Shown: in pieces, positions 1,805 through 58,682 of the stretch
Layout: the number at the start of each line of letters is the position of its first letter
Numbering within the stretch: the stretch's first letter is position 1
Assembly: GCF_002860325.1 (NCBI RefSeq)
Contig: NZ_PKOJ01000001.1
Coordinates: 806,001-870,000, forward strand
Direction of reading: 5' to 3'
From: Neptunicoccus cionae
Lineage (GTDB): Bacteria; Pseudomonadota; Alphaproteobacteria; Rhodobacterales; Rhodobacteraceae
Length of the DNA stretch: 64,000 bases
Made by a program: the position numbers and the translations under genes
The notes under the pieces: generated by a model
Told to the model about the DNA's origin: nothing
Database searches by the model: none
What the model saw: only the letters and a program-made list of their open reading frames with translations

Positions 1805-2614
1805 TTAAGAGGGACACCCGCGCAATTCTACTGCGCGGGGTCCGCCCAATAGTGTGACTTTGACACTGCTGCGCTGCATCATCAAAGGTGTACTGCCATA
1901 AGCGAAGAGATTAGCGCTGGCAGTGAGGGTATTGCCCTCGATCCGGCTGTCTTTCTGCTCGATCCACACATCGGTGCCGGGAAACTCTATCACCGGAAAA
2001 CTGGCCGAAGGCAGAGGCTTGTTGCCCCGTAGCGTGGTGCTGATGCGAAACCCGCCTTTAATCGGGGTGATGTCGCAAGAAACCGGAGCAATCCCGCGGG
2101 ACGCGCCACTGGCCGGTTGTTTGCGCAAGGCCGCCTTTATGACCTTGGTGCTGCCCGCATCGCTGCCAGCCACGTCCATTGAAAATCGTGCCTTCACGGG
2201 AATGCAGACGTCTTCGCACACCCCGAACAGAACCTCTCCTTTCAGAGAGACCGGAGCGCCGGACTGTTGGGGTGTAATGCTGATGGGCAGCACGAGTTCC
2301 TGCTCATAGCCGATGGTCCGCTCGCCATCTTTCATAAAGACGTATGGTTCGGGCCAGTGGAAGGCGACATCCTTGAGGTTTTCAGAGCCGCCCCAGTCAA
2401 AGGCGGGCGGGATTCCGTTGCTGCCCGGTGCGCGCCAGTAGGTCTTCCAGCCCGGAGCAAGCTGGATACGCGCAGCTATCATATGTCCCGACGATGTTTC
2501 ATAGCCGGGCAGGATATCCAGACGGGCCACGCCCTGAATATTATACTCCTGCGCAGAAAGCGCGGCAGGCAGGCCCAGTGCAAGGCCAAGGGCGGTCAGA
2601 CAGCTTCGTATCAT
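1805..2614 (-). CDS. Secreted DsbD-alpha-type protein (DsbD N-terminal domain only)
   Basis: Exported 269-residue protein. Residues 1-20 form a signal peptide ending LSAQ. The rest matches the N-terminal periplasmic domain of DsbD (DsbD_N/alpha): GWKTYWRAPGSNGIPPAFDW near residue 55 and LFGVCEDVCIPV near 130, where the two cysteines (CxxxC) are the redox pair. The membrane and C-terminal thioredoxin domains of full DsbD are missing, so it would be a free periplasmic thiol-exchange protein, perhaps for cytochrome c or copper-site maturation. The start at 2614 puts the signal peptide first; a longer reading from 2659 would add 15 polar residues. Confidence 0.85.
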   Translation of the reverse strand: MIRSCLTALGLALGLPAALSAQEYNIQGVARLDILPGYETSSGHMIAARIQLAPGWKTYWRAPGSNGIPPAFDWGGSENLKDVAFHWPEPYVFMKDGERTIGYEQELVLPISITPQQSGAPVSLKGEVLFGVCEDVCIPVKARFSMDVAGSDAGSTKVIKAALRKQPASGASRGIAPVSCDITPIKGGFRISTTLRGNKPLPSASFPVIEFPGTDVWIEQKDSRIEGNTLTASANLFAYGSTPLMMQRSSVKVTLLGGPRAVELRGCPS

Positions 2615-2864
2615 GGGTTGGTCGGTATCCGTTTTGTTGTGCAAAGAATATGGGGGCAAACTGCAAAGCGAAAGTCACAAATCAGCGAGAGGCTCGTGAC
2701 ATCTCTGCTGGTCAGTCTTGAAACCCCGAACAATCGGGCGCATCTTAAGAGAATGAACAGCACCGGCTGCGGATTGTCTCTTGTGTGGCAATTCACATGC
2801 CGGATCAGAGGCGCGCTGTTCGGCAATGGGGCTGCGCCTGCGAAACACTGGAGAAATAGTCGAA

Positions 2865-28803: not shown

Positions 28804-29364
28804 TTAAAGTCCTTCAACTTTTTTCATCAGCTCTGCCAGTTGTTGTTTCACAGCAGAAAGTTCTTCGTCCGCTTCGGTTTTCGGATCGGGTTTGGCCTCG
28901 GCTTCTTTTTGCGATGCAGCGGTGCTGTTTTGCAGTTGCGGCATCCATGCGGCCATCATGGATTGCATCAATTCCGCCTGCTGCTTCTGCCAGTTGGTGC
29001 CAGAGCCGATACCGGAACCGATGCCAGGAATCCGTTCCATCATGGCGGCCTGCTGTTCGGAAAACATCTCATAGGATTTGGACAGGAAATCCGGTAGTAC
29101 GCCTTGGGCGGCTGTGCTGTAAGAGCGCACAAGGCCAGTCAACACATTGACAGGTAGGACATTTTCGCCCTTGCTTTCTTGTTCGGTGATGATCTGCAGC
29201 AAAAACTGACGGGTCAGATCCTCGCCTGTTTTGCGATCCTTGATCTCGACATCGTTGCCCTGTTTGATCAGTTCCGCGATTTCATCAAGCGTCACATATT
29301 CGCTGGTCTGCGTGTTATACAGCCGGCGGCTTGCATAGCGATTGATCAAAATCGTGTTGGTCAT
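28804..29364 (-). CDS. phaR: Polyhydroxyalkanoate synthesis repressor PhaR
   Basis: A 186-residue PhaR. The N-terminal DNA- and polymer-binding domain is clear: LINRYASRRLYNTQTSEYVTLDEIAELIKQGNDVEIKDRKTGEDLTRQFLLQIITEQE. The C-terminal part is a Gln/Glu-rich helix with coiled-coil character. PhaR represses phaP (and often itself) and is released when it binds PHA granules. It lies just downstream of phaP and phaC, and a PhaR-type operator is seen before phaP. Confidence 0.96.
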   Translation of the reverse strand: MTNTILINRYASRRLYNTQTSEYVTLDEIAELIKQGNDVEIKDRKTGEDLTRQFLLQIITEQESKGENVLPVNVLTGLVRSYSTAAQGVLPDFLSKSYEMFSEQQAAMMERIPGIGSGIGSGTNWQKQQAELMQSMMAAWMPQLQNSTAASQKEAEAKPDPKTEADEELSAVKQQLAELMKKVEGL

Positions 29365-29994: not shown

Positions 29995-30044
29995 GATATA
30001 GATGCTGCGCTGCGGCATTTCAACAAAATAATGCTGCAGTGCAG
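29995..30044 (-). promoter_or_regulatory. phaP promoter with PhaR-type operator
   Basis: On the minus strand: -35 TTGAAA (30023-30018), a 17-base spacer and -10 TATATC (30000-29995). Ten bases upstream of the -35 lies CTGCACTGCAG (30044-30034), which fits CTGC-N3-GCAG, the PhaR operator form I recall from Rhodobacter. A further TGC-rich segment, GCCGCAGCGCAGC, lies inside the spacer. Confidence 0.65.
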
Positions 30045-57155: not shown

Positions 57156-57260
57156 GGCGCCTGTTCCCGTTGTTTGTGTGAATGCATGTAGCATCGCTGG
57201 TGCGCTGGCGAAAGATATTAACGCAACGGTCCGGGACAACGAAAAAAGAAGGTGGGAGGT

Positions 57261-57337
57261 GACGCCGGCCCCTCTGGGAGGAGGATAGAGGGACCGGCAT
57301 CTTTACCAAACGGGATCTGGGAGGAACGACCGCCGGG
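57261..57337 (-). ncRNA. CcsR-like (cuckoo) sRNA, copy 6 (last)
   Basis: Identical to copies 3-5. It is followed on the transcript by CACCUCCCACC and a U-rich stretch, so its main hairpin may double as the terminator of the operon. Confidence 0.78.
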
Positions 57338-57354
57338 TATTCGGTTGTATTTTT

Positions 57355-57431
57355 GACGCCGGCCCCTCTGGGAGGAGGATAGAGGGACCGGCATCTTTAC
57401 CAAACGGGATCTGGGAGGAACGACCGCCGGG
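57355..57431 (-). ncRNA. CcsR-like (cuckoo) sRNA, copy 5
   Basis: Identical to copies 3 and 4. Confidence 0.8.
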
Positions 57432-57448
57432 TATTCGGTTGTATTTTT

Positions 57449-57525
57449 GACGCCGGCCCCTCTGGGAGGAGGATAGAGGGACCGGCATCTTTACCAAACG
57501 GGATCTGGGAGGAACGACCGCCGGG
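57449..57525 (-). ncRNA. CcsR-like (cuckoo) sRNA, copy 4
   Basis: Identical to copy 3 over the full 94-base unit. Confidence 0.8.
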
Positions 57526-57542
57526 TATTCGGTTGTATTTTT

Positions 57543-57619
57543 GACGCCGGCCCCTCTGGGAGGAGGATAGAGGGACCGGCATCTTTACCAAACGGGATCT
57601 GGGAGGAACGACCGCCGGG
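57543..57619 (-). ncRNA. CcsR-like (cuckoo) sRNA, copy 3
   Basis: Consensus copy. The main stem is 12 bp, GCCGGUCCCUCU with AGAGGGGCCGGC including one U-G wobble, around the loop AUCCUCCUCCC. The second, weaker hairpin pairs GGUC with GAUC around GUUCCUCCCA. Confidence 0.8.
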
Positions 57620-57636
57620 TATTCGGTTGTATTTTT

Positions 57637-57713
57637 GACGCCGGCCCCTCTGGGAGGAGGATAGAGGGACCGGCATCTTTACCTAACGGGATCTGGGAGG
57701 AACGACCGCCGGG
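57637..57713 (-). ncRNA. CcsR-like (cuckoo) sRNA, copy 2
   Basis: Same two hairpins as the consensus copy. One substitution lies in the linker (TTAGG in place of TTTGG on the transcribed strand), and the following spacer is one base shorter. Confidence 0.78.
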
Positions 57714-57729
57714 TATTCGGTTGTATTTT

Positions 57730-57800
57730 GACGCCGGCCCCTCTGGGAGGAGGATAGAGGGACCGGTGTCTTTACGAAACGGGATCTGGGAGGAACGACC
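57730..57800 (-). ncRNA. CcsR-like (cuckoo) sRNA, copy 1 (promoter-proximal)
   Basis: First copy on the transcript, 30 bases after the second DUF1127 stop codon. Both CCUCCC-type loops are present. It differs from the rest in the linker (CGTTTCGTAAAGACACC side), which removes the lowest base pair of the main stem. Confidence 0.75.
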
Positions 57801-57830
57801 GTTTTGTATCATGCACCTGAAAGGCAGGTA

Positions 57831-58079
57831 TTAGTTCTCTTCTACAACCAACTGGTGTGCGTAGGCTGGAATGTCAGCGCGTTTCACGCCGATTTGTTCC
57901 AGTTGCTCGTTGCTCATGCCTTGAAGGGCAGAGATCATCCGGGCAGTTTGTACGCTTTGCAGGGACGCGGATGCCCGCGCTTTCAGAACGCTGAAACCGG
58001 AAGCGATTGCTTCAAAGGCGCGTGTCCGTACGGCTGCAAGGCCGGATTCAGAGATGTTTTCGTATGTGATCGTTTTCAT
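57831..58079 (-). CDS. DUF1127 family small protein (second gene of the sRNA operon)
   Basis: An 82-residue protein. Its C-terminal half has the DUF1127 pattern QTARMISALQGMSNEQLEQIGVKRADIPAYAHQLV; the N-terminal half (MKTITYENISESGLAAVRTRAFEAIASGF) is helical. In R. sphaeroides the DUF1127 protein CcaF1 is an RNA-binding protein that helps mature the CcsR RNAs made on the same transcript. Position directly ahead of the array makes this the closest positional counterpart. It starts four bases after the first DUF1127 stop. Confidence 0.85.
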   Translation of the reverse strand: MKTITYENISESGLAAVRTRAFEAIASGFSVLKARASASLQSVQTARMISALQGMSNEQLEQIGVKRADIPAYAHQLVVEEN

Positions 58080-58083
58080 TGTT

Positions 58084-58314
58084 TTATACCATTTCTGCCG
58101 CTTCGCGAGCGACCCGTCTGATGTCACCACGGGAAAACCCGAGGTCTGCGAGATCGCGGGCAGAGAGGCCTGCAAGCTCGGCAAAAGTTGTTGCGTACGC
58201 CTGACGTTTGCGGCGGTACGTGTTCCAGCTCTCGGCGGTTTTTTGAAACGCAGAGGCGAACTTAATTTTCAGGTCGCCGAGTGCTGTGCCATTGTGTGTG
58301 CTAGAGATCGACAT
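58084..58314 (-). CDS. DUF1127 family small protein (first gene of the sRNA operon)
   Basis: A 76-residue basic protein, with the classic DUF1127 ending YRRKRQAYATTFAELAGLSARDLADLGFSRGDIRRVAREAA. The Arg-rich helices suit RNA binding. AAGGAAAG precedes the ATG at 58314; the frame to 58398 has no ribosome site. It is the first gene of the unit that runs through the second DUF1127 gene into the six sRNA copies. Confidence 0.88.
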   Translation of the reverse strand: MSISSTHNGTALGDLKIKFASAFQKTAESWNTYRRKRQAYATTFAELAGLSARDLADLGFSRGDIRRVAREAAEMV

Positions 58315-58682
58315 TTCGACTTTCCTTCGTTTTGCTGCAGCGCAGAATTTCTTGCTGCAATGCAACAATATGAATTCCCCCACTTGGATACAACGCATCT
58401 CTGCGCAAAGGGGGTATGCACAAATGGAAAGGCACTTTTCCTTGAAAATAAGGCTGTTGGACTATGATTGCGCCGCCACGGTGCAAACCTGAACTGCTCT
58501 GCCAGTTATTTGCGCAAGGTTTGCACGAAGGGCCTGGGGTTTTGTGATCACAGTAAGTGACGGGACGTTTTCACCCGTAACGGGCTCTTGAAAAAGATTC
58601 GTGTCCTTTGCGAATTGCCAAGCGACTCAGAGCGTGATGAGGTGCCTCCTGACGCGAGGGATTTATCGCGGGGAGGGTTCAC
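58315..58682. other. Intergenic region between the divergent DUF1127 operon and a DMT transporter gene
   Basis: 368 bases with no credible gene. The half next to the DUF1127 genes is AT-rich with repeated TGCTGCA/TTGCTGCAATGCAA words and a candidate promoter (58367-58393). The half near 58550-58680 leads to the GTG start at 58683 and shows GGGAGG as ribosome site. Confidence 0.6.
58367..58393 (-). promoter_or_regulatory. Candidate promoter of the DUF1127-sRNA operon
   Basis: On the minus strand TTGTAT (58393-58388), 15 bases, then CATATT (58372-58367), 53 bases before the first start codon. TTG-N-CATAT spacing is near what RpoH-type sigma factors use in this group, where the R. sphaeroides locus is RpoH-dependent. 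The match is weak. Confidence 0.35.

Follow-up and report, generated by a model that had tools for sequence, protein, structure and literature searches.

A six-unit cuckoo/CcsR-type sRNA array of Neptunicoccus cionae with a predicted PhaR-type operator pair upstream of its DUF1127 gene

The closest described relatives of the locus reported here are the CcsR1-4 sRNAs of Rhodobacter sphaeroides and the NfeR1 sRNAs of Rhizobiales. Linkage of such RNAs to a DUF1127 gene is the CIN1 arrangement, as named in PMC10253847, and the linked protein CcaF1 aids sRNA maturation (PMC10253847, PMC8625941). The NfeR1 sRNA that has been studied is activated by LsrB and repressed by NtrC (PMC7143759, PMC10746234); nitrogen stress induces NfeR1, which silences ntrB through its loops, and the LsrB site at nfeR1 is TGCA-N6-GCAT (PMC10746234). 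A motif of the LysR-type regulator VtlR, CAATGCAGCCATGCA, has been described in Brucella (PMC12595884). The PhaR protein of R. sphaeroides binds CTGCNNNGCAG, and the S. meliloti phaP1 and phaP2 promoters contain two PhaR sites each, flanking the -35 element (PMC12542648).

The window analyzed here is a stretch of 64,000 nucleotides from the N. cionae genome (4.29 Mb, 17 contigs). It encodes both PhaC and PhaR, a repressor that senses the carbon-storage plastic PHB. The features discussed below are collected in Table 1.

Table 1. Features of the array locus and of the pha region in the window
Feature	Position	Strand	Details
Six-unit cuckoo/CcsR-type sRNA array	57260..57801	minus	six strong CCUCCUCCC-loop hairpins alternating with six weaker UUCCUCCC-loop hairpins
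Strong hairpin, unit 1	57730..57770	minus	coordinates from motif positions; recurs five times, last at 57261-57301
82-aa DUF1127-like small protein	57831..58079	minus	Pfam DUF1127 17.1 bits, E 0.0046, under cut-off
76-aa DUF1127 protein, CcaF1 position	58084..58314	minus	Pfam DUF1127 43.2 bits, cut-off 23.3
PhaR-type operator 2 (predicted)	58335..58345	minus	CTGCGCTGCAG on minus strand
PhaR-type operator 1 (predicted)	58355..58365	minus	TTGCATTGCAG on minus strand; operators 20 bp apart
Candidate promoter TTGTAT-N15-CATATT, loosely RpoH-like	58367..58393	minus	by inspection; weak evidence
phaR gene, proposed regulator	28804..29364	minus	PF07879 91.1 bits, PF05233 44.3 bits
PhaR-type operator pair, promoter of phasin-like gene (phaP position)	30005..30044	minus	in-window calibration

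Tandem Repeats Finder reported the array as a repeat of period 94 with 5.8 copies, 98% match and a score of 1049. Six CCTCCTCCC motifs are present on the minus strand of the window, all within the array and spaced by 93, 94, 94, 94 and 94 bases; the motif is absent from the plus strand of the array, and there are no further copies elsewhere in the 64 kb. Dinucleotide-shuffled versions of the window contained on average 0.44 motifs of this type, with at least six, spacing disregarded, in one of 100 shuffles. The repeat search and the motifs thus bear out the six tandem minus-strand units of the initial annotation; its unit length of 94 bp holds for four of the five spacings, the fifth being 93. 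The count of six is that of one assembly. No second array was found elsewhere in the 4.29-Mb genome by DNA search.

Each unit is predicted to fold into two hairpins. In all six strong hairpins CCUCCUCCC is unpaired in the loop, which holds AUCCUCCUCCC in the array units. The alternate weaker hairpins have UUCCUCCC only, and one was seen in every unit, as had been noted before. The strong hairpin had been described with the same loop and a 12-bp stem; the loop is as described, but the stem is mostly longer: unit 1 has 11 + 3 bp flanking a mismatch, and the other five units have 15 bp. A structure alignment covered three species, N. cionae and its two nearest relatives (one of them N. sediminis); of their twelve units ten were used, without two window units that duplicate another. 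In this alignment 94.5% of stem cells were paired, compared with 38-50% in slid controls, and none of 500 shuffles equaled the paired percentage or the covariation score of the stems. The number of cells changed on both sides was reached by seven of 500 shuffles and that of further pair types by 17 of 500, and the three pairs changed on both sides, matched by 56 of 500, are an unremarkable measure of covariation. Since the sequences are few and related, conservation of the stems supports, but does not prove, the predicted structures.

Units 3-5 show no differences across the 78 bases compared, and in an aligned comparison mean unit identity is 96% in the window array versus 82% and 78% in the two kin, whose arrays contain three more diverged units each. 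Unit 1 of the window shares 91% identity with its N. sediminis counterpart. Given the three diverged copies in each of the kin, the simplest reading is that the distal units of the window array were recently expanded or homogenized. An exact scan of named genomes with a 20-base piece of the unit returned two records, Neptunicoccus sediminis CY02 and a Rhodobacteraceae MAG. On the plus strand at 57332-57721, five spacers read as weak terminator-like hairpins (six in the region, 2.0 expected); no terminator was called on the minus strand of the locus.

On the minus strand the gene order is DUF1127, DUF1127-like, array and a sodium/proton-exchanger gene, and it is kept in both kin. The reported linkage to DUF1127 is confirmed, with a short DUF1127 gene directly upstream of the array on the same strand. 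Two such genes had been proposed; the 76-aa protein passes the Pfam cut-off, and the 82-aa protein is DUF1127-like only below the curated one. It has an 82-aa counterpart in each of the kin (E 0.0012 and 0.0011). NCBIfam provided no name for either neighbor.

The initial annotation had assigned the array to the cuckoo/CcsR kind and proposed a covariance-model search as a check. At the Rfam gathering score all copies are rejected, and there is no match anywhere in the window. Below it, the best match of the array is ar14 (44.4 bits, E 1.6e-6; gathering score 58.8), and CcsR1 matches all six copies at 22.3-26.2 bits (gathering score 65.3). These sub-threshold matches, together with the loops, support the assignment. 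The CcsR1 threshold looks too strict, since five CcsR1 matches in another locus (L043), at 56.0-59.4 bits, also fall below it; because of these scores we take the L043 array to be R. sphaeroides-like. Among ten loci searched at the gathering score a single match was obtained, to ar14, in L043. A covariance model built from ten units of the Neptunicoccus clade found hairpins, one or more per locus, in all 20 other loci given to it (23 sources; best E among other loci 1.1e-5, weakest 0.055). It also recovered 12 clade units, ten of them by construction, and produced two matches with E of about 0.01 on the opposite strand of the kin arrays. We file the array as of the cuckoo/CcsR kind in the CIN1 arrangement, below the Rfam threshold and with no claim to Rfam membership.

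Loci for comparison were obtained by a pattern search for close motif pairs, which are present in 268 of 345 family genomes; they come from the first listed of these genomes and do not sample the family at random. Eighty genomes, in a list picked by eye, have at least six motif pairs on one strand; part of these pair counts is due to composition, as the high control counts of G332 and G373 show. The set consisted of 36 loci including the window (L090 was omitted as a duplicate of L117). Seven with no DUF1127 motif in reach were dropped (L042, L085, L087, L088, L091, L101 and L105), leaving three clade loci and 26 others for the promoter comparisons.

Six copies had been considered noteworthy as more than the four of R. 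sphaeroides, a view that the family does not sustain. Exact motifs were counted in 24 of the 26 other loci, those with an array behind the gene, stopping at gaps above 150 bases; the resulting lower bounds are 2, 2, 2, 2, 3, 3, 4, 4, 4, 4, 5, 5, 6, 7, 8, 8, 8, 8, 9, 10, 10, 12, 12 and 26. Eleven of these exceed six, so six copies are ordinary; what stands out in the window array is the evenness of its units. Six as a record was rejected, since G201 has 26 motifs in one array. That array (L117, G201:C1:334000-337500, minus strand), the largest among the loci read, follows a DUF1127 gene and consists mostly of a repeated 140-bp three-hairpin unit with 26 CCTCCTCCC motifs. In a congener (L039, G009:C2, minus strand, ~1680-1780) a cuckoo locus may survive in reduced form: a DUF1127-like frame precedes two UCCUCCCAG stretches, and full CCUCCUCCC is absent.

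Upstream of the DUF1127 gene, a block with two predicted sites fitting the palindromic YGCRNYGCR / CTGCNNNGCAG operator of the PhaR regulon is identical in N. cionae and both kin. Only site 2 is an exact CTGCNNNGCAG match. Exact matches alone are not telling, since the window contains six, with 2.1 expected, and five of 100 shuffles reach this number. A matrix was built, with no input from the window genome, from the S. meliloti sites of PMC12542648, using 15 that the accessible portion of its table marks as 'Efficient'; these training sites score 16.2-27.6. In the window, the highest score (26.9) belongs to a site in the phaP promoter, and the array sites rank second and third (24.5 and 23.4). 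The next window site scores 15.8, and the best site in 20 random 64-kb sequences 19.1. Four exoH sites, initially omitted, were later added: the three scores became 26.4, 24.7 and 23.0 in the same order, the random best 20.3, and the next window score, 16.2, was that of the second phaP site (13.4, rank 6, with the 15-site matrix). The gene called phaP is small and lies between phaC and phaR; its Pfam phasin score, 15.8 of 24.9 bits, is below the cut-off. Two PhaR-type sites flank TTGAAA in its promoter in all three species.

The predicted array operators are located between the candidate -10 element and the start codon. A sigma-70 scan called no promoter at the locus, and the candidate hexamers are weak.

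Most other DUF1127-cuckoo loci have a different kind of promoter. The VtlR motif is present at 12 or more of 15 bases in 22 of the 26 other loci, compared with three of 400 random window stretches; N. cionae and both kin reach 10 of 15. A TGCR-N6-GCAT box occurs in 24 of 26, in 23 of them together with the core TTGTGCR-N2-YGCAG, and neither box nor core is found in the three clade loci (0/3). The VtlR motif is the sharper test, because the TGCR-N6-GCAT box is also common in random stretches of the same loci (217 of 1,300, either strand). Conversely, the PhaR pair is present in all three clade loci and in none of the 26 others, where matrix scores do not exceed 18.1 for the best site and 11.6 for the next, as against 24.5 and 23.4 in the clade, with equal scores in both kin. 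High scores in the other loci mostly come from the VtlR-type box itself, and these boxes reach 18.1, within the range of the training sites, which shows the similarity of VtlR-type and PhaR-type sites. PhaR as a family-wide regulator of cuckoo loci was dropped: most other loci have the VtlR/LsrB-like box, though this box is itself PhaR-like.

In 22 of the 26 other loci (L080, L089 and L098, for example) the VtlR-type box lies ~35-40 bases upstream of the TTGTGC core, which itself often fits TGCA-N6-GCAT. Box and core together suggest putative tandem LysR-type sites in these loci.

The N. cionae genome also contains a solo cuckoo-type gene, found by pattern on contig C10 (L036, ~2560-2720, minus strand), with two motifs and a T-rich tail after the last hairpin; it is present in both kin. 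Unlinked to the array, it has a PhaR-type operator pair of its own with lower matrix scores (19.6 and 16.0). A relaxed tandem PhaR-type pattern has six hits in the genome (1.1 expected), two of them at the cuckoo loci and four elsewhere. With fixed spacing, the pair was found in five of 345 family genomes; the window genome is one of these and has it at two places, both cuckoo loci. Within the genus it was found in three of 33 genomes, at two places each, all cuckoo loci; since the three species are close kin, this conservation is not independent.

Elsewhere, G228 has the fixed pair between two phasin genes (Pfam 73.8 and 86.2 bits), upstream of the second (L110, G228:C99), and two further strong PhaR-type sites lie in the same locus at 2169-2208. 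In G230 it stands just upstream of a frame named by eye as ParA-like (L108, G230:C5). G336 and G062 have it at one place each, with no PHB link seen nearby.

The array kind and the CIN1 arrangement are already known, and the new element is the promoter. Judging from the operator sequences, we think it likely that PhaR represses the cuckoo/DUF1127 operon until PHB accumulates. The DUF1127 gene, the DUF1127-like gene and the array as the 3' part would be transcribed as one operon. PhaR would sit just downstream of the candidate -10 element and block it, and binding to PHB would free PhaR from both the operon and the solo cuckoo gene. The transcript may then be cut into sRNAs, by analogy with ccaF1-CcsR1-4, with RNase E as the probable enzyme and the AU-rich spacers as its sites. 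By the same analogy, these sRNAs would silence mRNAs by base pairing of their CCUCCUCCC loops to Shine-Dalgarno regions. With six near-identical units, each transcript would deliver a higher dose, and the DUF1127 proteins perhaps help sRNA maturation, as CcaF1 does.

We also lean, with somewhat more reserve, towards a change of regulator in the Neptunicoccus clade, in which PhaR repression replaced LysR-type (VtlR/LsrB) activation at both cuckoo loci. Such a swap would be easy, because the two operator types differ little, the core half-site spacing being two bases in one and one in the other. PHB accumulates under nitrogen shortage when carbon is to spare. As nitrogen stress induces NfeR1, the swap may have kept the physiological input and changed the sensor.

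The initial annotation had pointed to stress as the input, and an ordinary CcsR-type stress locus is the reading to be weighed against PhaR control. The operon would then be driven by an RpoH-type sigma factor and/or a diverged LysR-type (VtlR/LsrB) regulator, the PhaR-like pair being an altered LysR-type site. The R. sphaeroides ccaF1-CcsR locus has an RpoHI/RpoHII promoter (PMC10253847), and a TTGNNN-N15-NNTATT candidate, present in all three species, loosely resembles the S. meliloti RpoH1 consensus CTTGAA-N16-CCTATAT (PMC8844928). Operator 1 is in register with the family core ATTGTGCANNYGCAGCA, with a different half-site spacing, and the PhaR-matrix scores of VtlR-type boxes make a diverged LysR-type site conceivable. 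Yet the VtlR match of the clade is no better than that of random stretches, its promoters have no TGCR-N6-GCAT box, and the unlinked cuckoo gene likewise has two full PhaR-type sites with the fixed spacing, so we hold this reading to be rather unlikely. A PHB/carbon-storage input appears the better prediction than stress, because the promoter is without the common family box and has the PhaR-type operators.

Two further readings concern the array itself. Its many identical loops, and a copy number that varies from 2 to 26 between loci, would suit a decoy whose main role is to titrate an RNA-binding protein or purine-rich RNA in a dose set by the number of copies; this is improbable, given that the related NfeR1 silences ntrB by pairing via these same motifs (PMC10746234). 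Least credible is a neutral minisatellite or a repeat-encoded peptide with no RNA function. The identity of units 3-5 is what recent slippage or unequal recombination would leave, and repeated frames of 61-75 aa are present in the array; but with a unit of 94 bp the reading frame changes from copy to copy, the stems are largely kept across three species, and the loops and the DUF1127 linkage recur across the family.

If PhaR control is correct, silencing through anti-Shine-Dalgarno loops would be a direct read-out of PHB storage, and a widespread, poorly understood sRNA/small-protein system would be tied to a defined metabolite signal. The locus is a testable case of regulator replacement. The comparison also predicts that the VtlR/LsrB-type control of DUF1127 genes known in Rhizobiales is common at Rhodobacteraceae cuckoo loci, which bears on Rhodobacter CcsR. 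Among the open-licence PubMed Central papers listed on CcsR, DUF1127, CcaF1, VtlR or LsrB we found no report linking PhaR to cuckoo RNAs; one paper names PhaR and DUF1127, in unrelated passages of its accessible text. We found no paper there that joins Neptunicoccus and polyhydroxybutyrate.

Among described systems, CcsR1-4 with CcaF1 of R. sphaeroides (Rfam RF02791; CIN1) has the same layout, a short DUF1127 gene followed by tandem CCUCCUCCC-loop hairpins on one strand. The window locus differs in having six units, CcsR having four, with a shortened UUCCUCCC loop in every second hairpin, an additional DUF1127-like gene, a predicted PhaR-type operator pair in its promoter, and units that score under the CcsR1 gathering cut-off. 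The ar14/NfeR1 RNAs of Rhizobiales (Rfam RF02344), the best Rfam match of the array, resemble it in their hairpins, whose loops carry the same anti-Shine-Dalgarno sequence. Each NfeR1 sRNA comprises three hairpins, whereas in the window a tandem array follows DUF1127, with PhaR-type sites in the promoter. MmgR of S. meliloti is likewise an sRNA gene with a PhaR site in its promoter (PMC12542648). It is, however, a 77-nt RNA of the ar8 family with no cuckoo array (PMC7143759), and the accessible text of these two papers mentions no DUF1127 partner, unlike the locus described here. In Brucella and Agrobacterium, DUF1127 small proteins and AbcR sRNAs share the regulator VtlR/LsrB (PMC12595884, PMC7486931; the accessible part of the latter speaks of small proteins, not of DUF1127). 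A box like that of this system precedes 22 of the 26 other family loci, and the Neptunicoccus clade is without it.
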